This document shows positions 14,022 through 53,216 of a DNA stretch of 64,000 nt, piece by piece. A program made the position numbers and the translations under genes. Each line of letters starts with the position of its first letter. Position 1 is the stretch's first letter. Below the pieces are notes generated by a model. It made no database searches. It was not told the origin of the DNA and worked only from the letters and a program-made list of their open reading frames with translations. The stretch is from Struthio camelus. Its lineage: Eukaryota > Chordata > Aves > Struthioniformes > Struthionidae. Where the stretch lies: assembly GCF_040807025.1 (NCBI RefSeq), contig NC_090967.1, positions 432,001-496,000 of the forward strand, written 5' to 3'.

Positions 14022-17000
14022 ATGGCGGACTGGAGCATGCCCATCAGCTCCCTGAGCGAGGACGTGGTGGCCAGGCTCTGTGAGCTCCTGGACAATGCCA
14101 GCCGGGGCTGGCGCAAGCTGGCAGAGGTGGCTGGGGCTGAGAAACGCTTCAAGTGCAGGTAGGAGTGTGGGGGCTGTGGGCAGCAGCTGGGTCTGTCCCT
14201 GCAGGAGGCACGTCCAGGGAGCACTCATTGTTGACAGGTTGATGGCTCCAACCATTGTCAACCTCCAGGTGACAAAATGCAGTGATGGGGCACAACCCCC
14301 CAACAGCCAAGGGCAATGGGGCTGTGCAAGAGCTGGGAGCCCTTCTCCATGCATGTGAGCACAGCCCTCCCAGAGGCTGAACAAGGGTGCCTGCGTCGCC
14401 TGTTCACCCTGTTGTAGCCACAGCCTGGGGTGGGAGGCGATGTCAGGTCCTCTGGGCATTGCTGGACCCCAGGGAGGGAGGCTGTGCTAGGTCCCCATCC
14501 TCCCCTGGTGCCCATGTTGGCCCTGGCTACCCCGGAGCTGGGCTGTGGCACTGACCACTGGGGCCACTTTGCAGTGAGGAGGAGCTGGAGATGTGCTCGC
14601 TGAAGGTGCTGGAGTCCCGTGGCAGCCCCACGCAGTGCCTCCTGCAGCTGCTGGCCGAGCGTGACTGCAGCCTCAAGTACCTGCTGGGCTGCCTGGACAA
14701 GATGGGGCACACGCAGGCCTGCCAGGTCCTCAGCGGTGCTGGTAGGGACTGCCATTGTGGTCATGTGGGGCCTGGAGATGGGACCAAAGATGGGGACTCA
14801 GCAGAAGAAAGGCAGGGAGAGAGGAGGAGCAGCTCTTCCTATTGATGGTCTCGTGCTGGCTAATGGTGCCCTGGCCAGGGTGGGATGGGATAGGGTGCAG
14901 TAGGATGGGATATGGCATGATAGGATGGGGTGGGACAGAGAGTGATAGGATGGTTGGGATGGGTCAGGGTGAGATGGAATGGGAGAGGCTGGGACAGGAC
15001 AAGGGTGTGTTGGGATAGGATGGGGCAGGATGGAATGAGATGGGGATGGGACAGGGTGTGTTGGGATGGGATAGGAAAGGATAGGAGAAGATGGTTGGGA
15101 TGGGACAGAAAGTGAGAAGATGGGGCAGAATGGGATGGGATGGGACAGAACCAGGTATGATGGGATGGTGTGGGATGGTGCAGGATGGAGGTCTCAGCCA
15201 GCCTAGGTGGTTCTCTTCTCTCCCGCAGTCCAAGGCACAATCTGCATCACGGTGCAGCCAGAGTCGCATATGGTGGCAGAGGGGACGCGGGTGTCTCTGA
15301 CCTGCTTGGCGACAGGCCCACCGGGGCTTAGTTACCAGTGGTTCTGTGGGAAGAAGGAGGTGAGATCCCACCGTGGCTGCAAGATGCCAGGACAGGCTTG
15401 ACTCTACTCCTGGCACACAGAGTAGCTTTGGGCAAGTTCTCCTGGGGGCTCCTGGGCCCAATGCGTGGCAAAGGCACCCCAATTGTCTCTGGACCAGCTC
15501 ATGCTAGGACGGATGATCGGGTGGGATGGAGCGCCCAACCTGAGCTGTTTGAATTCTCAGTCCCTGACGTCTCCCTGCTCTCTCCTAGCTGCCCGGAGCC
15601 ACGGCCCCAGAGCTGGTGATTGACACGGCCACCTCGCAAGGCCAGCCTGGCTGGTACATCTGCCGTGTGAATTGTGGGGTCAGCTTCGTCTTCTCCAGGT
15701 GGGCCCACGTCCAGGTGGAGAAGAGCAGCAGCCCCAGCTCAGGTGGGCCCCGAGATCTCTGTCCCCAGGCTGGTTCCCGCAGGGCATTGCTCTCCCCATC
15801 AGGCCCCAGGCTGGCTCCTGCAGAGCATCATTCACCCTGTTGGGCCCTGGCTCAGCTGCGAGAATCGCTGGGCTTGCCGGGGTAGTGGTGCCCATGGAGG
15901 AGCTGAATAGACAAGCCCTGGTTGTGCCCAGTCCCACATCCTGCTAGTGCCAACTGGCTCATGGCCAACACTTGCATGGCATGCCCCAGCACCCTGGGTG
16001 CCAGGGCCTGCAGATTGGTGTTTTGGAGCCCGGATGGATCTGTACCAAGGGCTCAGCCCCAGGCTCTGCCCCATATGCTGAGCATCCTTGTGTCAAGCCA
16101 AAGGGCCCCAACACAGCACGAGGGCTCTGGTGTGCCTTGCCTTGGTTGGGTGACGTATTTGGTGCCCTGTCCCCTCTCCAGCGAGTGGGTACTGCCCGAC
16201 CATGGCGGGGCTGCAGATCCTGCGGCAGCCACGGCCCTGCTGCTTGGCCGAAGGGGATACTCTGGTGCTGGAGTGCAGAGCCATCGGCAACCCGCCGCCC
16301 CAGTACCAGTGGTTCAGAAATCGGCGCCCTGTGGAGGGCGCACGAGCACCCCAGCTTCAGGTACTACCACAGGCCCCCTTGCCCAGCCTGCCACCATGCA
16401 GGCTGTGCTTTGCAGCGGTAGCCCCCAGTTCCCCTCTCTGTCCCTGGCAGGTGAAGCTGGTGACGACAGCTGAGCGGGGCAGCTATTCCTGCCGCGTGTT
16501 CAACCTCTTCCATGAGATGTGGAGCCAGGAGGTGGACGTGGAGATTGGTGAGGGCTTGGCGCTGTGCCTATGGCCAAGACGAGCTCCCAGGTGGGGTGCC
16601 AGCCCCATCCAAGAAGTGACAACCTCCATCCCCTCCTGTTCCACCACTCTAGTGTGGTGTGCCCTGGCTGCGCCAGCCTTGTCCCCCGTAAAGCCTTCCT
16701 GTGGCCTCTCCTGGGTGTCCCATTTTTATTGGGGAGCTCCACTCCCATCCTGGGATGTGATGATCATGGTGCATGGTGCAGTGCAAGGGTTGCTCCAACA
16801 TGTCCCCATACAATGCCGAGGTCCCCCCCAGGCCACTGGCCTCTTCAGTGCCCTCTGGCCCTCGTGTGTGCCCTCTGGCTCTCTCTAGCCTGACTCCCCA
16901 CTTTGTACTGCCACAGGCCCGCGGCTCTTCACCTCCGGAGGCTCCTGGCAGGACGGGGATGGAGGTACATGTGGGGTCTGTTCCTGCTCCTCTCCTTCTT

Positions 17001-20000
17001 GGAACGGCACAGCCCTGCCTGGACTAGGAAATGGAGACGGGGAACGGTGTGAGCCGTGGCAGGCTGCTTGCTGCCTGGCTCCCAGGCAGTGGGGCCCTCC
17101 CAAGGGGTTGGCCTCTGCATGTTTGCTTCTGGGGACAGCCCGCACAAATACTCTCCAGGGAGAGAGTGGTGCTCAGGGCTGTGGCATGCATGTTTCTGTC
17201 TTGTCAGGTGCCCCGGAGTGCTGTAGCCCTGGCCAGCTGTATGGTAAGACTTCTTCTAGGAAACAGCCTGTCCCAAATGGCTTGGTGACACTGGGGCTGT
17301 CACTGTCCTGGTCCCTGGTCCCCAGCATCACTCTGCAGGGTCTCCTCCGCTCGACTGGGCTCGGGCATGGAACACTCTGGGCATAGCACCCTGGGGAGAC
17401 CTGAGCAGAGTCAGGGACCTGTGGTGCCCTGGGAGTACCCCAGGCATGAGGAAACCAGGCACAACAAGGTGTCACCTCCATAGGTGGGGGGAGCAGGGGA
17501 ATGTTCCTGACTCTGTCCCCAGCACATCCCTCTCTCATCTTGCAGCCACTGACAAAGTTGCCCTGCTGATTGGCAACATGCACTACCTGCACCACAAGCA
17601 CCTGAAGGCCCCCATGGTGGACGTTCACGCGTTAAGCAGCCTCCTCCGCCAGCTCGACTTCAAGGTGGTCTCGCTGCTGGACTTGTGCAAGGCTGAGATG
17701 CAGATGGCTGTCAATGAGTTCCTCCTCCTCCTTGACAAGGGTGTCTATGGTACAGTGGCTCCTGCTGTGTCTGTGCCCCTGCTGCCTGCCCGCAGCCAGG
17801 TGTCCCCCCACTCATTAGGGCATCTCTAGCCCTGGAAGTACCAGGACAGTTTGGGGCTGGTGAGGCCTTGAGGGGAAGTTGGGCAAGGAATAGCCTAAAC
17901 CAGGGCAAGAGCAGAAGCTCAGGGGTGGGTAGTGCAGCCCAAACTGGAGGGAAGACCCAGGCTGTGCAGAAGCTTACCCTTCCATCGCAATGGGCCATCC
18001 CAGGGCGAGTGGGAATGGGGATGGCATTACAGAGTGGGTTGCTGAGGTGGCCCTGGGATGAGGCAGACCCCTGAGAAATGGGGACATGTGAGGAGGGAAA
18101 AAAAGTCATCCTTGTCCCACTGTCAGGTTTGCTTTACTATGCCGGGCATGGCTACGAGAATTTCGGCAACAGCTTCATGGTGCCGATCGACGCACCCAGC
18201 TCCTACACCTCAGCCCACTGCCTGTGTGTGCAGGGCGTGCTGCGGAGCATGCAGCAGCGCCACACTGGCCTCAACATCTTCCTGCTCGACATGTGCCGCA
18301 AGAGGTGACTGAGTCCTGGCCGCGAGGTGTAAATCTGACAAGGCGAGAGGTCCTGGGATGTGGGTGCCCACTGCCAACAGGGTGCCCCATTGGGTGCTGA
18401 GACTCAGGGGAGGAGAACAGGGACCCTGGGGTCCCAGGCAGGAAGTAAGCACCCAGTAGGCACCCCTTGGGTTCATCTGGGTACCCCAAAGCCATGGGTG
18501 TCACAACTGAGCTGGCAAACCCCACTGTGGGCAAACTGGTGTGTGCAGGGGGACACTGGGCAGGTCCTTAGTGCCTGCCGCAGGGCCTAGGCTTGCTTAA
18601 GGTGGGTTTTGGGGAGCTGCAGCCCCTGGAAGGAAGGAGTCGGGGAGACACAGCTCCCAGGGAAACTAGAGTGCACCCCGTGGCTGGCTCAGATGGGCTT
18701 GCTGCCAGTAAATCTCCCAGCAAGCTGGCTCCCTGGGCACAGGGGAGACTGCCCTGGCATGTTCGGGGAGGCAGTGGGCGCCCCCAGCTACGCCACAACC
18801 CACCACACTGGGTCCTTCTTTTGCAGGAACCTCAACGATGATATCATCCCGCAGGTTGGGGCGTTGCAGGTCACAGCCAACATTGTCTTTGGCTATGCTA
18901 CGTAAGTTCCCATATCTGCCATCCTTTGGGCATGCAGGCAGCGGGGCTGAGTCCAGGCAGCCTTGCTTGTGTTATACCTTGCTTCAGGGCTGGTGGGACA
19001 TGTCTGTCCATAGCCTGGAGTGAGGACAAGGACCAGTGCTCCAACCGAGCCTTTCCCCATACCTGGACGTGCTGTGTGTAAGCAGTATCACTCTAGGTCA
19101 GATTGGCTCTCTCCTGGTTGGTGCCATCAATGCTGGGGGTTGTGAGGGGAAGTCTTGGCCCCAAACTCCTTAGCGGGAAGGGAGAATCTCACAGTGGTGC
19201 TTGGGCCGATGGTGTCCAAGGGAATTCAGTACTGAGGCTTCTCTGGAGCACAGGGATTTGGGTTGATGATGCTCTATGTGCCCAGGATCCAGCCAAAGCT
19301 CCTGCTGCATCCTGGCATGGCTGTTGGGTGGTTCAGGCCTTGGGCTCAGCTATGTCCAGCTCTGAGGCTCGAGTCTGGGTCCAGCCCCATGCTGGGGACC
19401 TGGCTCAGGGCCCAGGTTCCTGGAGGAGTATCACAGAGGTGGGAGGACCCTAGCCATGGAGCCCATACCTGCCTGTCTCCCTCCCAGCTGCGCGGATGCT
19501 GAAGCCTACGAGCTGAGCCAGGGTGAGCTCTCCAATGGCATCTTTGTCAGCTTCCTCAAGCGCTGGCTGCTGGAGGATGAGAAGATCACAGTACTGCTGG
19601 ACAAGGTGGCTGAGGGTGAGTGGCGAGAGATGGAGGGCAGCCAGCGAGGCTCATGGCCTCCTCCAACCCCCTCCTCCTTCTGCAGATATGGGCACGCTGG
19701 AAATCACCCGGGGCCGGCAAGCCTTGGAGCTGCGTAGCAACCTCTCGGAGAGACGAGCCCTCACAGACCCCATCCAGCCGCCTGAGGGCCAGGACGAGTC
19801 ATCCGTTAGGAACCTGCAGTGGGCCAAGGCCCATGGTGAGTGTTGCGGCCACCCTGTCCCAAGCACATGGAGCTGGGACCCATCCCTCTTGGAAAGGGAG
19901 GTCCAAGAGATGGTGGAATAAGGCAATGGGCAGCACTTCCCAGGACCTTTCTCCCAGCCTTTCCTCTCTGCTCCAGGAAGGAGAAATCCCCGAGCACAAC

Positions 20001-21091
20001 CCCTGTGGAAGCTGCCCGCCCCAAGGCAGGGGCTTCAGGGTGGGGGCCTTGCTCCAGGGAAACCTGCTTTTGCTATCAGGGCACTGCAGCAGCTGCTCCC
20101 TTGTGGCTGAAGCACTGGCCCCAACCCTGAGTACCCCCAAAGGTGCCAGCCCCATGCTCGCTGTCTCCTCAGTCCTTCCAGAAAGCCGGCACCTCCACTT
20201 TGACTGTGGGGTCACCATCCAGCTGGGCTTTGCCGCTGAGTTCTCCAACATCATGATCATCTATACCCGCATTGTGGCCACCTCAAAGGACATTACCAAG
20301 TGTGAAGCCAAGCTCACAGACATACCGGAGGTGAGGGCTGGTTTCTAAAACCCCTGGGGATCTGCACTTGGTGACGTGATGTCGGGCAGGGGTCCCGTTG
20401 GGCCTGCAGTGATTTTCATGCCCAGGCGTTGTCTGTGGCAGGAGCTGGATGTGGATCTCAAGTTCACCAACAAAGAGAGCCCTGAGGAGGTGGGCAGCCC
20501 GCTGTCCCCAACCTGGAGCCTCAATATCCCCTCCTGCTGCCTCTACAGCCGGCTCTGCGGCCTGCAGAAACTGCGGGTAAGAGCTGTGCTGGGCAGGGGG
20601 GCAGTGACACTGTTGCTGCCTAGTCACTGTTTTCAGGGCTGGCTCTGCCAGGATCTGGTACAGGTCTGCCCATGCACCCAGGGCCACCTTGAGCCCTGGG
20701 GCTAGGCCAAACGGCCCTGGCCGTGGCAGTGTTGGGGCCAGGCCATCCTCATGAGCTTTGTGCGCATGCTGCTGGTGCTTTGCAGCAGGAGCTGGTGTTC
20801 ACCGTGTGCCTGCAGTACCAGTACCGGGGCATGGATGACTTCGTGGAGGAGAGGCAGACGGTGAATGTGGGGAAGCCGCTCATTGCCAAGCTCAACCTGC
20901 GGCTTGGCAACGGCCTGGATGCCTCTGCCCAGTCCAACCTGGATGTCTCTGTCTCGCTGCCAGGCTCGGAGGCCTCGGGCAGCCCCCTGTCCGGCTTGTC
21001 CCCGGGCAGCTGGGCAGCCGCTGATGCTCGCTGGATGAACACCCCCGAGGAGAACCTGAGCCCTGAGATCCCCAGCTCGCACTCCCTGTAG
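14022..21091 (+). CDS. MALT1-like type 1 paracaspase (PCASP), complete
   Basis: Cysteine protease and scaffold of the MALT1 family, which in MALT1 couples CARD-BCL10 complexes to NF-kB and cleaves after arginine. Sixteen exons: 14022-14158, 14575-14741, 15229-15359, 15589-15742, 16182-16360, 16451-16547, 16917-16964, 17208-17243, 17546-17749, 18127-18304, 18827-18901, 19488-19615, 19686-19835, 20173-20330, 20442-20576 and 20786-21091. They total 761 codons (760 aa; human MALT1 824). Domain order: death domain (about 1-100), Ig1 (YQWFCG), Ig2 (YQWFRN), paracaspase p20/p10 (about 318-511), Ig3 (about 560-690) and a divergent tail. His392 (YYAGHGYENF) and Cys441 (LLDMCRKR) form the dyad. Asp342, Asp439 and Glu474 match the S1-pocket acids of MALT1, and Trp557 matches its allosteric Trp580. 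It lies between MRPL54 and RAX2, so it is a paralogue, not MALT1 itself. PCASP2 and PCASP3 are described as lost in mammals; I cannot say which this is. Confidence 0.95.
14880..15190. repeat. GGGATGGGATAGG-type minisatellite in paracaspase intron 2
   Basis: Irregular tandem array of purine-rich GGATGGGAYAGG-like units, ending about 40 bases before the exon 3 acceptor. Confidence 0.85.
16917..17243 (+). other. two in-frame micro-exons in the Ig2-protease linker
   Basis: Exon 7 (16917-16964, 48 nt, encoding GPRLFTSGGSWQDGDG) and exon 8 (17208-17243, 36 nt, encoding GAPECCSPGQLY) both start and end in phase 1. Either can be skipped without a frame change. In MALT1 this linker contains a 33-nt alternatively spliced exon that alters TRAF6 recruitment. 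Alternative splicing here is inferred. Confidence 0.7.
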
Positions 21092-22154
21092 ACGGAGAGG
21101 GCAGCCCCCCTCTTCCCACTGCGACCCCTCTCCCCTCCGGCAGCCACGCACGCCACATCAGTGCCACGTCTGTCCAGCCAGGGGTGCCAGGAGCTGGAGG
21201 GAGCAGAGGTGCCGAGGATGGAGCCATGCATCAGGGGGGCCTGAGCCCCGTCCTGCCCTGTGTCGGGGCACCCTGGGACACCAGGGGTGCAGGACTTGCT
21301 TCGTGGCACCGCCAGGACCCCGAGCGCCAGCAGGGTGCCACTGAGGGCGGGGGTCTGGGCTGCGGTGCCTCAAGTGCCTGGGCAGCGCCGCCGGGGGTGG
21401 CCAGCAGATGAGCCCAGGGTGGTTTGGGGCTCCCCAAAACATTTCAGCTGTGTGTGTTTGGGCCCTTTAGGGATGGGGCAGCCACAGTGTTTCACTGGGG
21501 TGATGCTCAGGGCCATTGCTAGCCCTGTGTACGGGTCATATCCAGCCCTGCGTCCCTGGGCACTGCACAGCCACGCCGGGCCCCGTGGGCATCGGTGACA
21601 CGGGGCTGTCACGGGCACTGCCCGGCCCCGGCCAACCCCAGCGGGAGCCTGGGGGGCAGAGTGCCCAAACCCCACGGCTCAGCCGCCACGCAAGGCGTTG
21701 CGCTGGGACGAGATTGGGTTCATTCAGGCCTAGAAGAAATAGAGAGAAATAATCAGATTACTGGGCAAATCCAGAGGGGGGGGGGATTAAAGGGGTGGGA
21801 GCAGGAAGGCTCCTGCTTTGCAACCAGGCAATCTCAGCGGCCGAGATAAGGAGCAATGTCAAACAGCCCAGTGCTCCCAGTAGGACCCCGAGAGCAGGGC
21901 TGTGCCAGCCCGGTTGCCCTGGCTGCGCAGGGAGATTTCAGTATGAGGTTGAAAGCAAAGGAAAAAGATCTTTTTGGTTGGGTTTTCCCAAATATATGCC
22001 CTCGCTGTCGAGAGGTGAGGACCGAGATAAGTGCACACACTACCAGCCCTGCACATGTGCCGGTGTGCCGCAAACAGCGTGGGGCCAATGTGCCGTGGTC
22101 GGGGTGGCCCAGGGACGGCTCACTTGGCTCTAAAATGGGGGGGGGGGGGAAGTC

Positions 22155-22160
22155 AATAAA
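22155..22160 (+). terminator. paracaspase polyadenylation signal
   Basis: AATAAA about 1.06 kb after the paracaspase stop, preceded by a run of 12 or more G. It is the first canonical signal downstream and gives a 3'UTR of about 1.1 kb. Confidence 0.55.
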
Positions 22161-22935
22161 AGTAGAAGGAAGATGGCTCAGTTCTGTGGGACTGCGGCTA
22201 GCGGGGAGGGGCTGGCTCAGACCCTGCAGGGAGCGGGGAGGGCTCTGAGGCCGGGCACGGCGTCCCCGTGTGCGTCACAGGCCCTGGCACCGCTCGGTGC
22301 TGCAGGCTCCGAGGTGCTTTTTTGGGTCGCTGTATCCCAGGGATGTTCCTGCACTGGCAGCTGAGGCAGGCTCTGCCGCAGGGACCCATCGCAGCACCCG
22401 CCGGGGCGGTGGGTGAGGACTGGTCCGTAATGGGTCGGGCCAGCACCGTCCCAGAGCTCTTTTCCTCCTGGAGCAGAAAATATTAGGAAAAAAATGCCAA
22501 ATGAACAAGACTCCTGGAAAACACTTAGTTTCTTTCCCACAAGAGCAACAAACTTTTTATTGCCATTCATTAGAATGAAGTTCATGGTTTTTTAAGGTAT
22601 TTCTGGGTTTAAAAGGCGTTTTTTTTTCCTGCTGGAAGTACTTCCTGAAAAAGTTTTTGCACTGAGGAAGGGGCTTTACTGGGAAAGGGGTACATTTCTG
22701 TCTGCCTGTCATGTCGGGGCACCTTGCAGACACAGAATAAGAGAAAGGACCTTGGAGTTGTTAACGACGGGGGATAATTAGCCCCCTCCTGGAGGCTGTA
22801 GCATGAGGGGACCCGACCTTGCCCGAAGTCCAGCCCCCTGCAGATGTGCGGGGCCATGGGGACAGCAGCGGCAGGACGTCGCCGGTGGCGCCCACGGCTC
22901 GGGTGCTGCATCATCACCTCCGCACCAGCCACCCC

Positions 22936-22966
22936 ATGCAAATCAGCTCATTTAAATAGTTTGCAT
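22936..22966. promoter_or_regulatory. paired inverted octamer motifs
   Basis: A perfect POU-type octamer ATGCAAAT at 22936-22943 is followed by TTTGCAT at 22960-22966 on the opposite orientation, with ATTTAAAT between them. The arms form a 7-base inverted repeat with a 17-base loop. Confidence 0.5.
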
Positions 22967-23130
22967 AAACGCCCAGCCCGGCTCCGATGCCTTGTGGTGC
23001 CACCGGGCTGAGCTGCGCCAGGTGCGCGCGGCTCCCGAGCGAGACGCGTCCTCGTCCCAGCGCACGTCGTGGCGCCGGGCGCCGGGTCCCCCCTCTCCGA
23101 GCCCTTGCTTTCGGGCCGGGGCCGTCGCCC

Positions 23131-25576: not shown

Positions 25577-28500
25577 TCAAATGGGCTGCCAGGTTTTGTC
25601 AATGGTCTGAATGTGCTCCTTGGCTTTCATGCGCAGCGAGGCGATGCTGGAGCTCCTCTGGTCAACATCCTCCAGTGGGTACTTGTCCACAAAGGTGGTG
25701 CTGCACTGGTAGGCAGCGGGGGCCATGGGCTGCATGCTCTGCGCCATTGGCGGAGGGGTGTTGAGGAAGGAGTGCCCACCATAGGGGGGCTGCAAGGCCT
25801 GGGGGGCGCCCATGAAGCCGGGGATGCTGTGCACCGTGGTGGCGCTGGAGATAGGTGACGTCAGCCATGGGTCCAGTGGGAGGGAGTTGCTCATGGGGCC
25901 GACGTTGGCTGTCATGGGGGGCCGGTTGAAGGACAGCATGGGGGTGTCATGGAGCTTCATTGAACTGGCCTCCATCTTCTCCTGCCGCCTCCACTTGGCT
26001 CTCCTGTTCTGGAACCAGACCTGCACAGGGAGAGGTGAGACAGTGACCTTGCAGAGACCACACTGTGCCCAGCGTGTCCCACACGGGATGTCACACACAG
26101 CATGCCCATGCAGGGTGCCCCAGGCAGAGTGCCCTGTGTACTGTGCCCACATGGGCGTCCCATGCAGGGTGCCCATGAGCTGTGTCCCACACGGGATGTC
26201 ACATGCAGGTTGTCTCATGAGCTAAGTCCCATGCAAGGTGTCCCATGCAGGGTGTCCATGAGCTATATCACAGGCAGGGTGTCACATGCAGGGTGTCCCA
26301 CATGGAGAGCCCTGTGTGCTGTGTCCTATGCAGGGTGCCCCACGTAGGGTGTCCCATGCGCTGTGCCAGACATGCGGTGCTCCATGGAGGGTGCCTCAGG
26401 AGAGGTGCCCCATGTGCTGTGCCCCACGCAGGCTACCTGTGTGCTGTGTTGCCGACGGGGTGCCCCCCACGGCTCCAGCAATCCTGGGGACGCCATGTGC
26501 CTCTGTTAAACCTCTCCCATGAACCCCAGAAATATAACTGCACGTGTTGAAACGTGAGAGGTGTCACCCAGGCAGCCTTTGCGCCCACTGCTCTGCGTGG
26601 ACCCTCTCACAGACCGAGGAACCGGCCCAGACAGTTGTTATAACGTTACTTAGCCTTCAAAAGCCCCTTGGTAAGAGTTTGTTTTAATGAGCTAGCCCGG
26701 GGCAAAGATCCCTGAGGGATCCCCATTTCTGAGGGCAGAAGAGCAGAGAGATGGGACGGAGAGAGCTAGAGCCAGCACCCAAAAAGCCACATGGGGACAC
26801 CAGCGGGATGCACATGAGTGGGTTTTGCTGGTCACTGTGTCCCCAAAGCCCACAGCAGCACAGGGCTTGGTGCTGAGGAGGAGCAGGGCAGTGTGAGAGG
26901 TCTCCTCCACCCTGTCTGGCAAAGCAGAGACAATAAATATTAACTACTGGGCTGAGAAGGGGGGAGCTGTCTCCTACAGATCGGTCACAGTTGCTCATGG
27001 ATACTGGAATATACTGGTGCAAACTGCTTGTTGCTTAGATGGCTCCATGGAGATGTCCCTCTCAACTGACCCTCCCAGACAAAGACCACATCATCTTGGC
27101 ATTTTCTGACCTGTGCAAAAAAGGATGAAGTTGAGGCCTGGGACACTCAAATCACTTGTAAGGAGATCAGTTCTTGTCTCTCCCGGTTATTTTGACACTT
27201 GTGATTCTTCCATTTTCTTTCCATTTTCCTTCAATTTGCTTGCTATCCTTTGTCCGTCTGACCTGAATACCACAACCTCCTCTGGCTCTGCGTGCACCTA
27301 CCTGCCTGTCCTCCTCCTTATGACTTCCTATCCAGTGGCAGGAGGGATCAGGGACTTTCTGACCGTCCTCCCCTGTGTCACCTAGACACAGGTGGCCAAA
27401 GCAGAACTGGCAGGCAAGTGAAAACTGAAGAGATGCCTTGTCCTCTCAGTTTGCTCAGGATACATTTCTGTCAGCTTGGATGGGGCCATCTCTACCCTGC
27501 AGTGCTTCCCAGGACAGACCTGCAGCCGGGAACCATGCGATGGTCATCATGGATGCCAGCAGGGCTCGGACATCGCTGCTGCGTGGATCCAGCCTTGGGG
27601 ACAGCTCTGGTGGCAGGGACAGCTCAGCACCAGCCGACCTGCAGCTGTTTGTGCCCAGGTTGCACTGGTGGGACCTGGCCCCAAGGACACTGAGCCTGGA
27701 GCTGATCCGACTGAAAACCGACTTGATTAAAAAAGGACACACTTGCACTCGGAGTGGTTCCCCGACCTGACTTGTCATCTGGCTCTGGGAGCACTGGGAC
27801 CAGCACAGAGGAGAGAGGGGATGTCCAGAGATAGTCAGATCACGAGGAACTGTAAATCCCTGCCTGCACTGACAGCAGGACCTTCTTCTGAATGAGCCTT
27901 GTACCTAGAAGCTTTATCCTGAAGCCCAGGAAAAAAAAAGAAACATTTCCAACCTTTACAAACGTTCCATATTCCGGGAACTGTCACACTCCAGAATGTC
28001 TAAAATGCCCAAATCTTTGAGGTTCTTTGCTTGCCCGCCCTAAAGACCTGAAAGAGATCACGAGTGGCTGGAGTTTGGCTGCTTTCCCACGATATCAGCC
28101 AGACTGATTAAAAACAACTACCCAGCAGGACCTGCCCTCCCCTAAAGCCATAGGCACTGCAGCAGCTCTGCTCCAAGACCCTGAAAATCCTAAATCCATG
28201 AAACCCTAAGAGCCTCCACACACTGAACCCTTCTCCAATGGAGAGCAAGGCTTCCTCCAAGCAGGAAACCTGGATCCAACCCTGCTTTCCCACGGTGTCA
28301 CCCTCTCTTGTGTGTCACCAGGGGCTGCAAGCAATGAGGCACCGCATGGGCCCTGCCTGGATGTCACTAGCCAGCCAACGAGGCTCCCCTGCGGTGGCTT
28401 AACATCTCCCCAGCCTGCACAGCCGCCGTCCCAGCAGTGAGCTCTCCCCCTTGTGCTATGTCTTGTAGGAAAAATGTACTAGGGAAAACTACGGGAGCAA

Positions 28501-29932
28501 AGCTGAGACCTTTTTTTCCCCCTCAGTCCCACTGCCTCCCTGCAGACCCTGGACATGCTCCTTCCTTTCTCTGCCACCATTTCTCTGCCTGTAAAATGGC
28601 AATAAGGCTGTGCAGGCTGTCTAGTGACTGGCTGAACTGGAGAGTCCTTCGCGCAGTGTATGTGTGCTGATAATTAGCTCTCCCTGTTTAATTAGGGTGT
28701 TTCCAGAGGAGAGAGGTGCTGTCTGGCTCCACTTTGGTGGAGGCCAAGCCGCCTGCCCTGAGCCTTCACCAGGCCCATGGCAGCGCCGACCTGTCCAGCC
28801 AAATCTCTGCTCTTCTCTCCCATCCTGAGACCTCACACGTGGGGGTAGGACCATCTCCCTAATGCATGGCCTATGCGGGGCAAGCGTCTGCATTGCTCCA
28901 CAGCCATCCTGGAGCAGAAGAGGGGGCTGGACCCCCACAGGCCCACGGCCAAGCCCTGGAGGTGGCCCTGCTCTGAGCACATGCAGCCCTGGCCGTGCTT
29001 GGTCCACACGGGACCAGCTGCAAAGCTCAGCAGCCCCATTGCGGCCAAGATCTTGGCAGTTTCTTCAAATCATCAATTTAACATGGTTTTCATTTTTGGT
29101 GCTAAACTAACCCATGATCTTGCTCTGCCACCCCAGAGCTGGTTGCATTTCAGCACTGAATTATTTTAGTCTCCCAGGACTGCAGCCCCATAGCTTTTAT
29201 AGACTGGCTCTGCAAAAGCAGCCTGCAGGACACCAAATGTTAAAGTGCCATTATTAGGACTGGGTAAAATACTTCACAGGCCTCCTTGAACGGAGGCAGC
29301 TGGTAAAATTCCTAGGAAAACTCTGAGCCAAAACGCAAAGAAGTTTTGTCCTTAAAAGCAGGAGATGGGAAACGGAAAGCCAAGCTTTGGGAATTTTTTT
29401 GGTCTTTCCTCTGCTTTTCCACCACTTGGAGCAGTGAAACCATCCCTTTCACCCAGGCGGCTAGGTGAGGAGGAAGCTGGAGACGTGACTCCCTCTTCAA
29501 GAAAGGGGGAAACTGAGGCACAGCGCGAGGCCACGGTGGTAGAGCTGGGAGCAGAGCAAAGCTCTCCTGAGCCCAGGTGGGTCCCTCGGCCACCCCCTGC
29601 CACTGAGCAGGGCCAGACTTAACCTGGCACAGATGTGCCGCACACCGGCCGTGCTGACCCCGCCGAGAGGCGCCGGGTGCCCTCCCTACCTGCACGCGGA
29701 CCTCCGGCAGGTTGACCTTCATGGCCAGCTCTTCCCGGCTGTAGACGTCGGGGTAGTGGGACTTCTCGAAAGCTCGCTCCAGCTCATGCAGCTGGTAGGT
29801 GGTGAAGGTGGTGCGGTTCCTGCGGTGCTTCTTCTTGGGCTGCTCCTCCTCGGCGGCGCCCGGCGGCGTGCCCTCGCCGTCCCCCGGCTTCCGCAGCTCG
29901 CCCAGCTCCCCCTCGCACTTATTCAGGAACAT
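25577..29932 (-). CDS. RAX2: RAX2 retinal homeobox transcription factor, complete
   Basis: Paired-like homeodomain factor needed for photoreceptor gene expression. Coding exons 29932-29690 and 26020-25577 give 229 codons (228 aa). The ATG follows an acceptor (CCTTTGCAG, exon start 29940), so a non-coding first exon lies upstream. The start [12 protein letters not shown] resembles the MFL start of human RAX2. The homeodomain (about 36-95) includes [19 protein letters not shown], and recognition helix [15 protein letters not shown] with Gln50. The intron falls between Q and V of VRVQ|VWFQ, the conserved site. An OAR domain ([16 protein letters not shown]) lies near the C-terminus, which ends in TWQPI. 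The middle has the proline-rich RAX-type segment. Intron 2 (26021-29689) holds a minisatellite and MIR-like fragments. Orientation and neighbours match human 19p13.3. Confidence 0.95.
26080..26470. repeat. minisatellite in RAX2 intron
   Basis: Irregular tandem units built on CATGCAGGGTGTCCCA and GTGCTGTGYCCCA, about 0.4 kb long. It begins about 60 bases inside the intron from the last exon. Confidence 0.85.
28575..28607 (+). repeat. MIR-like SINE remnant in RAX2 intron
   Basis: TTTCTCTGCCTGTAAAATGG followed by CAATAA resembles the MIR segment TTTCCTCATCTGTAAAATGG. About 0.9 kb away, at 29507-29522, is the GGGGAAACTGAGGCAC word in the opposite orientation. Confidence 0.3.
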
Positions 29933-30305: not shown

Positions 30306-30309
30306 TCTC

Positions 30310-31500: not shown

Positions 31501-31509
31501 GGAGCTGGG

Positions 31510-33610: not shown

Positions 33611-34354
33611 GTGGGGGACGGCCCCAGGGCCAGGGCCCTCGGCCGAGATGCAGGGCCAGGGCATGCACACGGCGAGTCTGCCTGAAAGCAAAGGAGGCCA
33701 AAAAAACACCCAGAAAGAAGAGACGAACTAATCCCTGGAGTGGGAACAGGAATCAAGGGAATTAAACGAATAATGGAAAAATAATGAAGCCAAAAATAAA
33801 GAAGCAGGAGCAATAAAAACAGAAAGTAAGAGAAGGAACTCAGTGCCGAGCAGGGCAGACGCACACAACGCTGCCGGAAAGGGTCGACCCTCCCCGCGGG
33901 TCGAGCGCCTGCGGCCGGAGGGCGGCTCGACGCCTCCGCCACAAGGGGCCCCATCTCCCCCTCGGCTCTCGGCTAGACAGCACGCTCTTAAAAAGCCCCC
34001 CGGGACAGTCGGGTTTTCAGGACCCTCTTGTTTCCCGGCGGCAGCGGGGCGACGCCGCGGGGTCCCCGTCCCCTCGTGGGCCGGGCTCCCCTTTTTTCCG
34101 ATTTCGTCCCTCTCTGCAGACGCTCTCCATGGGAAGACGTTCGTCCCAGCAAAAATAAAAAGCCGCCCAGCCCCACAAGTGCTTATGTGAAGGGCAGGGG
34201 TGGCAGAGGGCACAAACCCCTGGGGCTTTCCCCACCGCTGCCACCAACGGCCGGTAGATGGAGGAGGTCAGGCCTGGGACGCCAGCGCCAGCCCGTCCCC
34301 GCTCCTGGGCCGCCCGCCCCCGGCTGGACCCCGAACTCTAGCAAATCGCCCTAA

Positions 34355-34800
34355 AGAGAAGAAACTGCCACTAATTCAAAGTGTCTTAGCAGTAATTCCT
34401 AGAAATTGGAAGAATTATTAAGCAGCTAATGCAATGGCAAGAGCTGATTCCCTTCCCTTTGGCAGATCTGGCATTTTCTTGTGGCCTTGGTGGCCACAGC
34501 AGCAATTTTGGAGGTTTAAGCACTTAAGCTTTAAAACTGTAGGGGAAACTGCTGAGATATAACATCTCCGGCAGATTTTCCTCTGTCCTGCTTTATTCTT
34601 GACCACACTTTTTTCCCTCTGCAGGGACTGGAGCTATTTGTTTGTCATTAAAGAACCCCAAAAAGTGAACAAACGCAGCAATGAGCCCTGGCTGAACTGT
34701 GCAAAAACCCTCTCTTTCGGGTGTGAGAAAGCAGTAAACACTGAGGAGGAATAAATAACATTATCCCTCTTTGGAGCCCGTCAGTCCCTGGCCTGGGAAC
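34355..34800. promoter_or_regulatory. AT-rich putative conserved element A
   Basis: An AT-rich, non-repetitive island within GC-rich DNA, with CTAATTCAAA, AGTAATTCC and TTATTAAGCAGCTAATGC. It has no coding potential. It is considered regulatory by composition and position between RAX2 and the complexin gene. Confidence 0.35.
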
Positions 34801-35229
34801 CCTGAGCGCACCCAGATCAGTAGGGACATCCCTGGTGCTTTAGCAAATCTATAATTTTGTGTTTTTTTGGCTTTCCAAAACAATCTTTCCTGAAGGCAAG
34901 TGAGGGAAGGGAGCCACGAGTAAGTGCCCAGCTTGGGACTTACTCGGATGAACTGTCTCTAGCAGCCGGTGGGCGAAGTGGGGAGCAGGGGCAGGTTTTG
35001 CCCTCCAGCCCCGGAGGTGACTTGAGAGGGCGCCCCGGGGTGCTGCGCTCGGTGCTGCAGGGAGCAGCACCCTCCCGGCAGGGCCAGGCTTATGGGTCAC
35101 CGCTCCGCGGCTTTCGGGGCCCCGGCGCCCGCTCCCGAGCCCCCGGCCGGGGTGGTTCCCAGCCCCCTGCAACGAGTGCGCCCCGGGGCTTCCCTGGGGA
35201 GACATGATTTCTTTTTAAGCATCTGCCCC

Positions 35230-35580
35230 CTGCGCGTTCTACCAAATTTGAATAAAACGGCATTACCTGCTGGGCCCAACTTGGATTTTCCAGGAGTATT
35301 TAACTTTGACGGTCCCTCCTGGGAACCAAACAAGCGGCTCAACCTCACCAATCTTGCAGCTTGGCAGCCAAAGTTCCCTCTAGTCTTCTTATTTGTCACA
35401 GAACCACCGCGCTAAGGCTCGGGAGAATCTTTATTTAGTGTTGCAGATGTCACCAGGCCCCGCAGATTGGAAATGAGTCCAAAGGATTAAGACGAGGTTA
35501 TTAATTGGAGGCCTTCCCCTTTAAGAATGATTGACAGTTACTTTCTGGGCAAGTAATTGCTCTAAATGTCCCTCCAGTGC
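35230..35580. promoter_or_regulatory. AT-rich putative conserved element B with OTX/CRX-type site
   Basis: Contains GGATTA at 35484-35489, then TTATTAATTGG and AAGTAATTGC. Flanking DNA is GC-rich. It is a candidate retinal enhancer; conservation was not tested. Confidence 0.4.
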
Positions 35581-36044
35581 AGGGGCGGGGGGGGGGGGGT
35601 CTGGGGATGGACAAAGACGGGGACTGCCTTCCCCACTCAGATTGTCTCCCTACAAAGGCGTCCTGCTGGAGTTTTCCTTGTAATCCCCTCATTATTGGAG
35701 AGGAAAAGAATTAGAAACATAGAGAGAGGAGAAGAAAGGCAGAGGGATGGTGGGGGGAGGAGGGAGAAAGAGAAACAATTTCCTTTGGCTTTTCCAGCAC
35801 CACCGAGCTTTTCCCGGGCTTAGGGATTCAGGGAGCATCCCTGGCCCTGGGGAAAGGCACCCTGCGGGGATGGGGGACGGGGTGGCAGGAGACGATGGGC
35901 TCGGGGACCCACTTTGGTGGCCGGCATCCCCCAGCGAGGCCATGGTGAGACGTGAGGCCGGCCCCGGTGGCAGCTGGTGCGGCCCCGCACTGGCCCCGTG
36001 CCTCTGCGGCTGTGGGGCTGGGCTGGGGACCAGGCAGGGGGACC

Positions 36045-36290
36045 AGGCATAGGGAAAAGCCATGGGGACCTGCCATGGGGATCAGGCATGAGGACCACAT
36101 GAGGGAACTGGCCATGGGGAATGGGCAGGAGGATCAGGCATGGGGACTTGGCATGAGGCCCAGAAGTGGGGACCAGCCATGAGGACCGGGCACGGGGACC
36201 AGGCACGGGGACCAGACATGAGGACCAAGTTTGGGGACCAGACATGAGGACCAGGCATGAGGAACAGTTGTGGGAACTGCGCACTGGGAC
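36045..36290. repeat. GGGGACCAGGCATGAGGA-type minisatellite
   Basis: About ten tandem units of the form GGGGACCAGRCATGAGGACCAG with substitutions. Confidence 0.85.
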
Positions 36291-36299
36291 TGAATATGG

Positions 36300-38210
36300 G
36301 CATGGGGTGGGGGGACCAGGTGTGGGCAGCTGGGGCAGAGGGCAGGTTCCCCCCTTGCACAAGGCAAAGCAGAGGAACCACGAGGCTGGGAAGGCACCGG
36401 CACCACGGCAGCAATCCCCGCATCCATCCCCGCCAGAGCCCGCTGCCAGATGGAGGCCAAAGAGCTGCATGGTGCCACCACTACCCCATGTGTCCTTGCT
36501 GTGGCAGGGGGGTCTCTTGGATGGAGCTGCCGCCATCCCTGCCTCTCCCCCATGTCCCATCAGAGCTGGGCCAGGCCTGTTGTGACAGTCACAGGCAGCA
36601 AGGGAGCCCACAGGCCGGGTCCGCAATGGCCCCTTGGTGTGATGGAGGTGTCACCTCCAGCCCTGGTGCAGCTGGGTGACATGTGCAGGGTGCCTGGTGC
36701 TGCACGTGTCAGAGCTCAGGTCACCCTGCAGCTCCCCCTCGGACCTCCCCTCCCCAAAGGTCCCACCCTGCCCGGCCGCTCGCTCGGTCTCTTTTTGCCC
36801 CTTTTTTTCTGCACGCTTTTACTTTCTTCTGAAAGCCTCTTCCTGCCACCTGCAAATGCTGCAGTGCTCAGCTGGCGTCTCGGCTTCCTCCCACTTCCTC
36901 TTCTTTGCACAGTTCCCCTTTTGGATGCTCAACGTCACTGAGGCGCTTTCGGACGCCCTCCCTGGGGGGCCGACCCCCCCACGCCGGCGGGTGCCGCGGC
37001 ACCGTGACTGCGAGCGGGTCTGTGGGGCGCCGTGCGTCCCTGGCTCCTCCGGCTCGCTGGCCCACGGCGCTGCTGCTTGTGGGACCCTGCAGCCACCTCG
37101 GCACCCCGACTTGGACCCCACAGCTGGCCCTCAGCACGCCACCGCCCTGGGGACAGCATGGTCCCACCCTGGGGATAGCATGTCATCGTGCCAGGGGCAG
37201 CATGACATCCCCTTGGGGACAGTGTAGCACGCTGGGGACAGTGTGACACCTGCAGCCACCCCACCACTGCTGGCACCTCTGGCGGGGGCTGCGCAGGAGG
37301 GTGCCGGATTCGGGGAGCACCCGGGGGCGTTACGGGAGCACCTGCCTCTCCCTCGTGCTCCCCAGCAGTGAGACGGCCCTGGTGCTGGTGCCGCCCACCC
37401 TGGGGACACCCTCGTGCCTGGGGATGACGCATGGCACCGGGCGGCCACCGGCTGGAGGTGCAAACGGGCATCTCCATGGCGCACTTGCCCTGGCACGGGC
37501 TGGTGCTGGCGGAAACCAGCCCGTTTTCAGGCCACCGCGGCGGGAGAAAAAGCTGAGCAGAAAGCCGGTCCTCTGCTCCAGCGGCCCTCAGTGGCTTCCC
37601 AACACAGCCATGGGGGACGTGACACGTGGACGCGTCCCAGGGGACCCCGGGCACCCCGTGCCAGGCCGACCTGCAGGGCAGCGGAGGGACGACGCTGGGG
37701 GTAGCCCCGGGGAACAACGCGCCTCCAGGAGCCGGAGCTTTTGCCCAAATCCTGCAAGAGTCAGGTGAAAATAACCCGGCGCAGCGGCAGCGGGAAGGGG
37801 CGGCGGGAGGGAGGCAGGCAGCAGCTCCCCGCCGGTCCCTCGAGGGCGGTGCGAGCGGCCGAGCGGCCGCGCAGCGGCGTGCGGGCTCCGGCGGGAGCTG
37901 TTGGGCCCAAAGCTCCCGTGGGTCAGAAGACGGATTCAGTCCCCCCAAAACGGCTAAACCTGAGGATGCCCAGGCATCGCGCCAACCCTCCCGGCGCGGC
38001 CCTCACCCTGCGTCCCCCCGCCGCGCGGGGGCACCCGAGTTGACAGTGCGCCCCAGGAGGCGTGGGGCGAATTTTCGGAGCTGGGGGGCTGCAGTCGCCG
38101 GCCTGCCCAGCTGCCCTGCCCGGCCGCGGCCCGGATTTGGATTTACCCACCAGGGCCGTGCGCGGAGCCGGCCCCGCTAACCGCCTTAAGGTGTTGGCTC
38201 ACACGGGAGG
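36300..38210. other. GC-rich intergenic stretch
   Basis: No exon, RNA gene or mobile element was recognised. It contains a short GGGGACAG-type repeat around 37140-37250. Open frames on both strands follow from base composition. Confidence 0.5.
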
Positions 38211-38215
38211 AGGGG

Positions 38216-38470
38216 GAGGCCAGCAGGCTTATTTGACAAATGATTATAATTGCCTTTTAGGAGCAGATAGCAAATTGATTTGCTTCCTCGTTCGAGGCCT
38301 GTAATCGCTTCATCACTTTAAAATATTAATGCTATACTTCTTTGCTAGTTTCCCAATTACCCTAATTGAAGGCAAATTGGTTAAGAAGGTGCAATGCAGA
38401 GTATCAGGGGGTTTAGTTCACTCAAATGACAGTTTTAAACCTCCCTAATCCTATTAGGAGGCAAAGCTGC
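38216..38470. promoter_or_regulatory. AT-rich putative conserved element C
   Basis: A sharply bounded AT-rich island with dense homeodomain-type sites: TAATTG 38247-38252, GTAATCG near 38301, CCAATTAC 38353-38360, CCTAATTG 38361-38368 and TAATCC 38446-38451. The surrounding DNA is GC- and CpG-rich. It lies about 8 kb upstream of RAX2 and is the most enhancer-like piece in the window. Confidence 0.5.
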
Positions 38471-38479
38471 TAACGCTTA

Positions 38480-40770
38480 GAGACGCTGCGTCAGCTTACC
38501 GGGGCGGTGGGGCCGGAGGCGGGGGTCGGGGCTGGGGGTGGCCGGGGGCCGCCGGCCTCACGTGACCAGCTCGGCCGGGGATTTATCACTTTTTTAGTTC
38601 ATTAAGAGGCCTTGGGCAGGCGGGGAGGCGGCAGGAGTGACCCAAAAGGGTGCCGAGCGGGAGGCAGGTGGCAGCGTGGGGACGGCGGGGGGGGCAGGAC
38701 GATTAGCCGAGGAGACCTGGCGGAGGGTCCTGACCCGAATCCCCCGGCGCCGCCGGCCCGGGCCCAGCCTGCGCTGGGAGCCCACGCGCTGCCCCGCTGG
38801 GAGCACTGGGAGCCGAGCTGGGGTCGGCGCTGCCCCTCGTTTCACCGCCCCGGCGGGACATGCCCCGAGCTGAGCGGGGCCGGAGGAGCCTGTGCTGGGG
38901 CGTCCCGGCGGGGCTGGGGCGCTGCACTCCCCTCCGCCCCCCTGCAAAATACTCCTTTCGGCTGGCAGCGCTCCGGGCTGCCTCGTCCCCTCTCCCAGCA
39001 TCGCTTGCCTCGGCCACCAGGACATGAGTGCCGGGGACGTCGCTGTGCTGGGGACGGGGGCCAGCAGCCCCTTGGCGCCACCCCAGCGCACGGGGCTGGC
39101 GTCGGCACGTGGCCGCGCCGGCCCGGAGCGGTGCCGGTGCTGTTGAGCGTCGTCCCAGCGGCCGCACTCGGCGTCAAGCCCGAGGGGAGCGGGGGACGTG
39201 GCGTGGAAACGGGGCGCCGGCGGGTGCTAACGCGCTGCTGTACGATCGAGCCAGGGACATGGCCCCGTCGCATTCAACAGAGCCTGATTTCTGTCCCCAA
39301 ATGGAAGATTTGGCAAGTCTGGCAGAAAGGCTGGATGGAGGAAAGCAAGGATGGTAGGAACGACAGGGACAGCTGGGACAGTAGGGATGGCAGGGACAGC
39401 AGAAATGACAGGGATGGCAGGGACAGTAGGGACAGCAGGGGCGGCAGGAATGAGGAGCCCTTCGTGCTCCAGCCATGCCGTGCATGGCATGCTTCTGCAG
39501 TCAGCGGCCCCCTGGACAGGCCAGGTGGATCTCCATCCTGGCACCTGCTGGGGAGAAGTGACACCTCAGCGGGACTCCCCCTGCAAGCCCTGGGGCTACC
39601 GTGGGCTCACCCCAGCCTGAAATGCAACCTCATGTAGCCTCGGAGACCATCCTGCCCTCTGGGGCTCCCTGGTGCCACCTGTCCTTTTCCCCATGAGGCT
39701 GGGAACCCCGCGGGGCCAGGTACCCCATGCACTTGGAGACCTCCTTGCTGGAGCTGGATGACTCCCACAGGTGCTGGGTTGCTCCAACTGAGAAAGCTGA
39801 GGCCTGTAGCTCTCATGGCAGTGATGAGCTCAGCTGCACAATCCCTGTCTCACCCTAGAGAGGAAAACACCCCAAATGCCTGACTGCAGCTCCAGGGATC
39901 TCTCGGTCAGGGTCCACAAGGACTGATCAGGGCTGCCTGGACCTCGGGCTCCTCCTGCCCTTCTCCTGGGCTTTGCGGGCTAAGAATACCTCACCCGGCA
40001 TTGCAAAACCAGGTGCTAGGTAGGAAGAGATTACAGACATGGAGTGGGGACGTGCCATGAGCAAGTGTCCTGGCTGGGGATCGCTCTGTCCTCTCCTTCA
40101 TTCTGGCTATAGGATAGTCATGCTTATGCTGGTGGCTACCAGAAGCCAGCAAGAAATGTCCTACCCGGGCTTGGAGTCTGCCACAACTGGCAGAGTGGTG
40201 GATTTGGGCACCACCTCCTGGCCCTGCCACCGGTGCCAGGTGCCACAGGAGCTGTGGAAACCTCGAAGGGAGCGACGTCTCGGCAGGCCTTCTGGAGCAG
40301 ATGGCCCTGGCGTGGGGCGGACGGAGGCCCCTGTGCTGGAGCGGCTTGACGCGTCCTTTCTTTCATGCAAACACAGCGTGATTCCCCCAGGCCCCGGCTC
40401 CGGCTGGGAGGTGGCGTTTGGGGCCATTCCTGGTGGTACATTTTACAAGGGTTCAGCTAGCTTAGTCCTCGGGGACAGGCGACTCAGGCAGATTAGACCT
40501 CACTAAAATAAGCAGGTATTAGTGATCTCAGCAGCCTGCAGCCTTCCGGGGCTGGGTGTCTGCAAGGCAGCATTTAAGCCCGTGCTACCTGCTAAAATGA
40601 ACATAAAAGGGGAGATCTCACCCAGTAATAACCCCGGGATGCACAGGATAATCTAGCCATCTTTCAGAGGGATCCCTTCGCTGCCAGGATTACTGTTAAT
40701 TGCCATGAACCATCCCAGTGCTGCTCCCAAGGGATGCTCTGGTCGGGGCAACAGCTACCGCAGAAACAAC
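38480..40770. other. intergenic DNA between element C and the complexin 3' end
   Basis: A GC-rich first half with a small GACAGGGATGGCAGG array at about 39355-39440, followed by mixed-composition DNA. Around 40.45-40.65 kb there is a moderately AT-rich patch (GGTATTAGTGAT, GCTAAAATGAAC). No gene was recognised. Confidence 0.5.
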
Positions 40771-40794
40771 ACCCAGTTCCCGGCAAATGCTGCC

Positions 40795-40800
40795 TTTATT
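40795..40800 (-). terminator. complexin gene polyadenylation signal
   Basis: TTTATT on the + strand (AATAAA on -) about 0.77 kb after the complexin stop codon. It is the first canonical signal downstream. Confidence 0.6.
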
Positions 40801-41573
40801 GAGCCAAATGGTGAGAGACGCCCCAAAGCTGTTTCCCTGTAATAAACAGGGCCGATGGGAGCAGCAGGGCCTGCTGTCCGCCCCAGGCAGATAGATGCTG
40901 AGACAGCCCTGTTCCAGGGAGCTCGTAGGAGAGCAGAGCAGGGGACACTGTGGGAAGGGACGTGTCCAGCAGCACCTGGCTGGATGGGACCCAGGTGTCA
41001 TCTTAGCAGGCAAAACCAGTGATGCCTGGGAATGTTTCTGGAGAAGAAAAGGTGATGGCTGGGGGCAGGCCGAGGGCTGCGGGACCAGTGCCCAGCAGCC
41101 AGGATGACGGATGGCTGTTCTCATGGCAAACACACCGTGCCTAGACCTGGTCATCTCTGGCTGCCCGGCAGGCTTGGCCAAGGGTATCCGTATGGGACAG
41201 GCACCCATTCACTGCCTGGCACCCATGGATGGGATGTCAGGGCTGGGGCCAGCATCCCTAGCAGAGAGGAGGGCTGGGGGCCAGTTCACAGGCTGGGGGG
41301 CCACCAGTGGCCTGCTGGGCATGGGGATGGCCAGTGGTGCCCCGTGCTCACCATCAGCATGTGATGGGACCCCTCTGTGCCAGGCATCTGTAATACCTAT
41401 GTCCCATCAGTTCCCCAGGGGTTCAGCAAGGGATTTAGGGGAATTTAGGAGCCTCGGTGGAGCCTTTGTGGAGCTGGGGCTGAGCCCCAGTGCGGCAGAT
41501 CTCACCCACAGGGTCTCAGATCGCTAGCACCCATGGGTGGAGGTGGCATCCGGTCCGAGCAGGCAGCCTGGCA

Positions 41574-43399
41574 CTACATCATGGAGCATTTCTCCTTCAC
41601 CTCCTCCACCGTGTCCTGTGCCCGACCCCTCAGAGCCTGGAAATCCACCTCGCGCAGCTTCGTCAAGAAGGAGAGTGCCCCATCTTCCTCCTCCTCCTCC
41701 TCCTCCTCGCCTTGCACCATGGCAGCTAGCTCCTCTGGCAGCTCCACGGAGCCGCCTGCCACGTGCAGCTGGGCATCGTCCCGCTCGTCCTGCAAGTGGG
41801 AGATGGCGTCAGGGCCGCAGCCAAACCCCGGCATCTGCCAGCCACAGGACAGCCCTCAGCATTACTCTGGGTGCTCCCTGGCTCTGGGGCACCTGGAAAC
41901 ATGGGATGCTTGGGAGGACACTGGAGCTGTCTGGTGCTGGGTTCGGACTGTGTGCGGGCAGACAGGATGGATGGAGACAGCAGCTGTTTGCTGCCCCCTT
42001 CAGGAATCACCTCCCGTCCCAGGGCACTGTGGGGACACCGGGCAGCCATCCAGTCTGGGGCTGTTCTGCAGGGCCAGGGGTCTGGGAGCCCCTGGGACAC
42101 CAGTGTGAGGAGGCAGAGGCAGCACCCTGCTGAGGTTGGCTGGGGCCTGGCCTTACCTGCGCCAGGTGGTATTTGTCACGCAGGTGCATCCGCACAGCAG
42201 CCCGCTCTGCTTTCCTGTGCGCAAAGGCCTTGTCCCGCTCTATCCTGCAGCAGAAAACGTGACACTGCCACGGCAGCTGTGGCCGAGTCCCTGGCACACA
42301 GCAGTCCCCGCCGAGCATCGATGCCTCAGCTGCAGCATGCGTGCACACGGAGGCAATGATGCTCTGGTAAAGGCATCGCCTCTTGCACTACCCTCCCATG
42401 CAAGCGTGTGGTGCATGCACATAGGTGCACAGAGCCTGTGCTGGGCACACACAGGTGCTCACACAGCCGCCCACCAACAGGCCTGCTCCAGTGACGCCTG
42501 GGACTCACAGCCACCCGGCTCCAGCTCCGTGTCCTGCCCCAGCCATGTGGCTGTGGTAGCCCTGGTCCAGAGGTGAGGCCAGAAGGATGCAAAGGCACCG
42601 TCTGAGGGTTGCAACTGGAGGCTTTCATGGCAGGGCACTCATGGTGGCCCTCCAGCTCCAGGGCCCAGAAGAGATGCTCAGGAAAGGTGCTCACTGGAGA
42701 GACCTGCTCCTTCCCCCATGGCCTCTCGCCTCCCTGACACTGAGCCAGCAGGTCCCCAAATCACCAGGACATGGGGAAGTCAGACCTTAGCACAAACCTG
42801 CGATGGCCTGTGCTGTCTCTTGGAATCCTAGGTACTGGGGTAACAGTGGTGCTGGACATCTGCTGCTCCAGGACAGTGACAGCCAGGGTGCCCCCTGCCA
42901 CCTCCAGCAGAGCCAAATCACTAGCTCTGCCCTGTGCCAGTACCCATGGCTGTATGGCTGTATGGCAATGCTGGGACCTCCCAAACCATAGGAAGGAGCC
43001 TCTGAGAGGCGCAACAAACCTCCGCATGCCCATGCTGCTACTGCCCCTTGCCACAGCTGCCTCCACCCTCTCCCCTTCCCACCCCTGGGATTTGCTGTTG
43101 CAATCTCACCCACCAGGACCCTGGGGGCCAGGCAGGGAGACAGGGGAACCCCAGCCTGATCCTTCCTGGCGCATGGGGGACCCTGCTGACACTGCTTGCA
43201 GGGGAACCGCTACCCTGAGGAGCCCGGTGCCCCAGGTAAAGCCTTACTTCTCCTCCAGCAGCTGCCGCTGGTACTCCTCAAACTCCTCGCGGGCCATGCC
43301 GTTGGGCAGAGTAGCTGCCTTCCCTTCCTTGGGGGGCTCCTTGGGCTCCTTCTCGTCCCCCCTGAAGCTCTTCAGGGCTGTGGTGAAAAAGGTGGCCAT
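41574..43399 (-). CDS. complexin of the 3/4 class (CPLX4-like paralogue), complete
   Basis: Small SNARE-binding protein that clamps and promotes vesicle fusion; complexins 3 and 4 act at retinal ribbon synapses. Exons 43399-43248, 42244-42157 and 41789-41574 give 152 codons (151 aa; human CPLX3 158, CPLX4 160). The start MATFFTTALKSF resembles MAFFVKNM. The GMAREEFEEYQRQLLEEK accessory helix and the central helix ERDKAFAHRKAERAAVRMH with DKYHL match the family. VAGGSVELPEELAAMV, an eight-Glu run and the C-terminal CSMM CAAX box (farnesylation, as in CPLX3/4) follow. Introns split LLEEK|IERD and LAQ|DERD. Human 19p13.3 has no complexin. The gene next to RAX on 18q21 is CPLX4, so this is probably its duplication sister. 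Confidence 0.92.

Positions 43400-46266: not shown

Positions 46267-53216
<6,950 letters not shown>

Follow-up and report, generated by a model that had tools for sequence, protein, structure and literature searches.

How RAX and RAX2 came to be two genes, and whether whole genomes or one small segment were duplicated to make them, is the question raised by the locus studied here, a window of 64,000 nucleotides in the ostrich Struthio camelus (C26:432001-496000, contig NC_090967.1) in which RAX2 stands between a paracaspase gene and a complexin gene. The genome to which it belongs (1.45 Gb in 262 contigs) was itself searched for paralogues. Our results indicate that an ancestral neighbourhood very likely survives in this genome in at least three copies, the window being one of them; most likely they were left by two early vertebrate genome duplications. 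In fact members of this row are linked three times in the same genome, on C26, on C40/C41 and on C12, and this three-fold linkage in one bird genome is the new element; it favours genome duplication and gives no date for it. The observation made by a sequence-only reading of the window, which saw in its three genes a sister of the human MALT1-RAX-CPLX4 cluster, is confirmed and was largely known already.

The three genes are present where that reading had placed them. The paracaspase lies on the plus strand (14022-21091, with the start codon at 14022), and its 16 coding exons encode exactly the NCBI Struthio model P0001 (760 aa), with GT-AG borders at 15 of 15 introns; its top match among about 5.8 billion proteins searched is from Struthio camelus. 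Pfam, run on a reading of 14 exons and 729 aa, detects the caspase domain PF00656, MALT1_Ig PF18703 and Ig domains or families, and the death-domain structure of human MALT1 (2g7r) aligns to residues 8-99. The death domain, the Ig domains, the caspase-like domain and Ig3 together make it a type 1 paracaspase, that is, a member of the MALT1 family. The catalytic His and Cys are retained in the alignment to human MALT1 structures, and both active-site motifs occur in all 120 proteins listed in the search with this gene. It is a gene other than MALT1 (PCASP1) itself: it belongs to a separate clade, and the PVETTD-type TRAF6 motif is found in none of its 120 listed relatives, as against 104 of the 112 proteins newly listed in a second paracaspase search, where TPEETG occurs in 106.

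According to the accessible text of PMC5978004, jawed vertebrates came to have three type 1 paracaspases, of which mammals have lost two, and PVETTD is specific to PCASP1. The ostrich set resembles PCASP1-3 in having three paralogues, MALT1-type domains and PVETTD in MALT1 only, and it comes with chromosomal neighbours, whereas the main text of that source, so far as accessible, has no mention of bird, chicken, Gallus or synteny. The same source states TPEETG for all three paralogues, which is at odds with our counts: the PEE site, present in 108 of the 120 listed relatives, is mostly SPEEVG (77) or SPEELG (23), and the window gene itself, near 20.5 kb in its Ig3 region, has SPEEVG where MALT1 has the TRAF6 motif TPEETG. 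Two short exons of 48 and 36 nt, both used in P0001, lie between the second Ig and the caspase domain (16917-17243), and P0005 reads through the intron between them. They sit at the place where MALT1 presumably has its isoform exon. The window gene is tentatively named PCASP2, and the third ostrich paracaspase, described below, PCASP3, the latter being the more distant. Judged by its domains and known relatives, PCASP2 would be a protease recruited by BCL10 and a scaffold for NF-kB like MALT1, minus the C-terminal TRAF6 motif.

RAX2 follows on the minus strand (25577-29932), where the coding exons 29932-29690 and 26020-25577 encode 228 aa. Its start lies shortly before the homeodomain, Pfam finds the homeodomain and OAR, and no octapeptide-like word turned up when the minus strand was scanned for motifs; a paired-type homeodomain with OAR and without the N-terminal octapeptide is what identifies RAX2. 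The genome search with this gene recovered it at its own place on C26. From its domains and relatives it is predicted to be a retinal transcription factor. The complexin, also on the minus strand (41574-43399, with the start codon at 43399), has exons at 43399-43248, 42244-42157 (88 nt) and 41789-41574, and its protein of 151 aa carries the Pfam domain Synaphin and ends in CSMM. Synaphin, the C-terminal CAAX and the second coding exon of 88 nt place it in the complexin 3/4 subfamily; a bird CPLX4 query matches it weakly (E 5.4e-6). In the accessible text of PMC2941751, CAAX and the 88-nt exon serve as marks of this subfamily and the length of 88 nt is invariant in cplx3/4 genes; the zebrafish cplx4c described there is like the window gene in its three exons, its 88-nt middle exon and its standing as a divergent third member. 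Judging from its domains and known relatives, the window complexin may be a prenylated regulator at ribbon synapses.

A sister of this row is found on C40. Genome matches place MALT1 there at C40:69,899,857-69,944,488 (plus), RAX at C40:70,109,154-70,110,964 (minus), which is the second-best genome match after RAX2 itself, and CPLX4, 91-98% identical to bird CPLX4, at C40:70,122,808-70,141,892 (minus), so that the three genes are ordered and oriented as the paracaspase, RAX2 and the complexin are in the window. The match to MALT1(+), RAX(-) and CPLX4(-) that had been drawn from the human order thus holds in the ostrich for order and orientation, but not for the claim of consecutive genes, as about 165 kb lie between MALT1 and RAX on C40. 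An exon in this interval, at C40:70,020,049 on the plus strand, we take to be ZNF532, and on human 18q21 MALT1 and RAX are presumably non-consecutive likewise. Long open frames of tandem repeats stand between MALT1 and the ZNF532-like exon (C40:69,985,000-70,007,000). MALT1, RAX and CPLX4 are each duplicated near-identically on C41, and C40 has a length of 70.4 Mb; the two contigs are probably Z and W, little differentiated as in a palaeognath. Over human residues 340-637, from the caspase-like domain into Ig3, the ostrich MALT1 exons are 83-93% identical to human MALT1 as compared with 64-80% to the window gene in the corresponding stretch, while N-terminal of residue 340 the values are 47-75% to human MALT1 and 44-51% to the window gene.

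The paracaspase tree agrees with this arrangement. It was built of 24 rows, namely 12 of the 120 listed proteins (P0001 included), 10 of the 112 newly listed ones and two ostrich paralogues whose exons were read one at a time; where names are legible (a few rows are unnamed) the listed proteins come from birds and mammals only, and fish, frog and turtle are absent from the tree. It is rooted on the third ostrich paracaspase, a long-branched row that fills 49% of the columns. Ostrich MALT1 clusters with the 10 mammalian MALT1 rows (support 97/98), and the other side holds 12 rows including the window gene. Because the same order and orientation recur in one genome and the tree separates the two paracaspases in this way, an ancient sister block is supported. 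Kon and Furukawa 2020 (PMC7137802, in its accessible text) report that elephant shark, gar and coelacanth preserve Malt1-Rax-Cplx4 and its paralogous counterparts.

What distinguishes the possible causes is a third block, on C12. CPLX3 lies at C12:23,396,378-23,398,874 on the minus strand, with three exon matches that reach 88-99% identity with bird CPLX3 as against 42-60% with bird CPLX4, and next to it CSK exons run on the same strand from C12:23,414,238 down to 23,409,001, the end of the piece examined; their SH2 exon scores 155 bits to CSK structures versus 84 to MATK. In the window the complexin has a kinase of the same type beside it, which we read in 11 exon pieces on the minus strand (46270-52605). 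When the joined pieces were used as one whole query the best match was full-length CSK (520 bits), and the identity as MATK, the CSK-homologous kinase, is assigned because the SH2 exon (51495-51713) scores MATK structures above CSK, with 122 versus 80 bits. Thus on both C26 and C12 a complexin on the minus strand is followed by a CSK-type kinase on the same strand. The third paracaspase is also on C12, on the minus strand, with strong matches at C12:25,979,197-25,992,504, weaker exon matches extending from 25,998,602 to 25,977,990, and both catalytic residues retained. One further paracaspase match, at C11:29,237,062-29,237,253 (E 9.8e-4), is confined to an Ig stretch and was set aside as a likely unrelated Ig gene.

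Taken by family, a paracaspase and a complexin are present on each of C40/C41, C26 and C12, CSK or MATK on C12 and C26, and RAX or RAX2 on C40/C41 and C26; several linked families are therefore duplicated onto the same chromosomes, as is expected of ohnologue blocks. By length, the chance that one unlinked gene lands on C12 is 0.019 as a single rough estimate. The human segments 15q, 18q and 19p have further paralogy in TCF, ONECUT, MEX3 and ATP8B, a background that our literature search left unconfirmed. A full-text literature search gave four publications with two or more of the terms MALT1, CPLX3 and RAX2 and, by term counts, none combining the three. The accessible main text of Kon and Furukawa 2020 is without bird, chicken, CSK and paracaspase, and by the same term counts it has no CPLX3. 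The neighbours of the complexins are given in PMC2941751, according to whose accessible text CSK and LMAN1L come before CPLX3, and CPLX4 has LMAN1 and RAX on its two sides; the window differs from this LMAN-complexin 3/4 unit in that Pfam found no lectin domain in the three minus-strand open reading frames tested between the complexin and MATK. Two horse complexin-3 entries, P0280 and P0283, bear the name "lectin, mannose binding 1 like", and these names are probably annotation fusions reflecting LMAN1L adjoining CPLX3.

Several causes can be considered for such an arrangement. The window genes could be recent copies, made in the bird lineage, of MALT1, RAX and CPLX4; that the paracaspase or the complexin is a recent lineage-specific copy had been named beforehand as the outcome that would overturn an ancient origin. 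For the paracaspase it was tested by forcing ostrich MALT1 into the window clade, which costs 7.2 log units and is weakly rejected by the approximately unbiased (AU) test (p 0.037); there is modest support from these alignments for excluding a recent MALT1 copy. For the complexin the same question is left less sharply answered. The complexin tree consists of 36 of the 120 listed proteins together with the window complexin, and rat CPLX1, tried as its outgroup, was dropped for a branch of 9. The 23 CPLX3 rows, which range from sharks to mammals, part from the 13 amniote CPLX4 rows with support of 96/100, and the window complexin falls in neither group, its branch having a length of 2.6; the AU test does not reject its nesting within bird CPLX4, owing to this very long branch. 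Its identity with bird CPLX4 is however only 45%, and with bird CPLX3 48%, whereas bird and mammal CPLX4 share 84%, which makes a recent copy of bird CPLX4 unlikely as far as sequence comparison goes. Considering also that shark, gar and coelacanth reportedly have this arrangement (PMC7137802, accessible text), an origin of the whole row in the bird lineage is highly improbable. Still less credible is a chance clustering of three unrelated duplicates, for which we found no supporting point and against which stand two blocks of one genome that agree in order and orientation, and a partial third.

The more serious alternative is one small segmental duplication of Malt1-Rax-Cplx4 in an early jawed vertebrate. 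It is preferred by Kon and Furukawa (PMC7137802, accessible text), who allow two rounds of genome duplication or delayed rediploidisation as well, and it has in its favour that the Rax of lamprey and of hagfish, with one Rax found in each, falls outside the group formed by Rax and Rax2 of jawed vertebrates, a placement that points to a later duplication; the same authors note composition bias and delayed rediploidisation for such Rax trees. However, a segmental duplication leaves unexplained why a third paracaspase and CPLX3 lie together on one further contig, and likewise why the neighbours complexin-MATK and CPLX3-CSK match in the same orientation. We regard it as unlikely, and genome duplication is favoured over it because of the third block with CPLX3, CSK and a paracaspase on C12. 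Besides the lamprey and hagfish genes, other points weigh against genome duplication as the cause. The linkage on C12 is loose, as the third paracaspase lies 2.6 Mb from CPLX3, and its outer exons are matched weakly, with E from 0.002 to 0.2. No RAX was found on C12 in a genome homeobox search with 150 of 196 candidates scored, where the sole C12 match is a weak one (E 6.7e-4, 30% identity). The window complexin cannot be placed in its tree because its branch is too long: the AU test gives p 0.119 with the 6 bird CPLX4 rows (cost 7.5 log units) and p 0.174 with the 9 sauropsid CPLX4 rows (cost 4.3), and for sauropsid CPLX3, all CPLX4 and tetrapod CPLX3 it gives p 0.443, 0.462 and 0.611 with differences below 0.6. 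Finally, all trees are without a lamprey or invertebrate row and without a usable outgroup, and the duplication is undated by them. Of the proposal of an ancient whole-genome-duplication block, then, the sister block stands on order, orientation and the paracaspase tree, and the genome duplication is favoured by what is found on C12.

The proposed history under genome duplication would be as follows. An ancestral neighbourhood would have held a paracaspase, RAX, a complexin 3/4 and a CSK-type kinase, and joining the ostrich order with the published neighbours suggests the row paracaspase(+), RAX(-), complexin(-), LMAN(-), CSK(-). Two early vertebrate genome duplications would then have multiplied it, and different members would have been lost from each copy: the copy in the window may have kept PCASP2(+), RAX2(-), the complexin(-) and MATK(-), that on C40/C41 MALT1(+), RAX(-) and CPLX4(-), and that on C12 CPLX3(-), CSK(-) and, at 2.6 Mb, the third paracaspase(-).

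Further genes and features of the window lie on both sides of this row. To its left we read by eye a gene on the plus strand at 9699-11366, presumably MRPL54, whose exon joins are unvalidated since the automatic join met a stop, and on the minus strand at 1945-6369 a gene which we take to be of APBA3 type, with 8 exon pieces including PTB and PDZ exons (PDZ by Pfam in one open reading frame) and, by eye, more 5' coding sequence to about 8.5 kb. Beyond these two lies what appears to be the end of TJP3 on the plus strand, and MRPL54 is assumed to be the left neighbour in human 19p13.3 too. A long G-rich minisatellite-like tract (8580-9400) lies upstream of the APBA3 start and adjoins the MRPL54 start. 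At the right end G+C declines from 0.57 (52-56 kb) to 0.37 (60-64 kb), and at 56000-64000, where one open reading frame was tested by Pfam, no gene was identified.

As for its meaning, the ostrich genome offers a test within one genome of a question disputed in print, how Rax and Rax2 originated, and the third block favours genome duplication. It is likely that paracaspases 1-3, complexins 4, window-type and 3, and MATK and CSK are ohnologues of one row, hence that Rax and Rax2 arose by early genome duplications rather than by a small segmental duplication, and that three paracaspases persist in birds, of which one adjoins RAX2 and another lies on the chromosome of CPLX3 and CSK. A paralogue of MALT1 with an intact catalytic pair, of a type that mammals are reported to have lost, is thereby placed beside RAX2 in birds.

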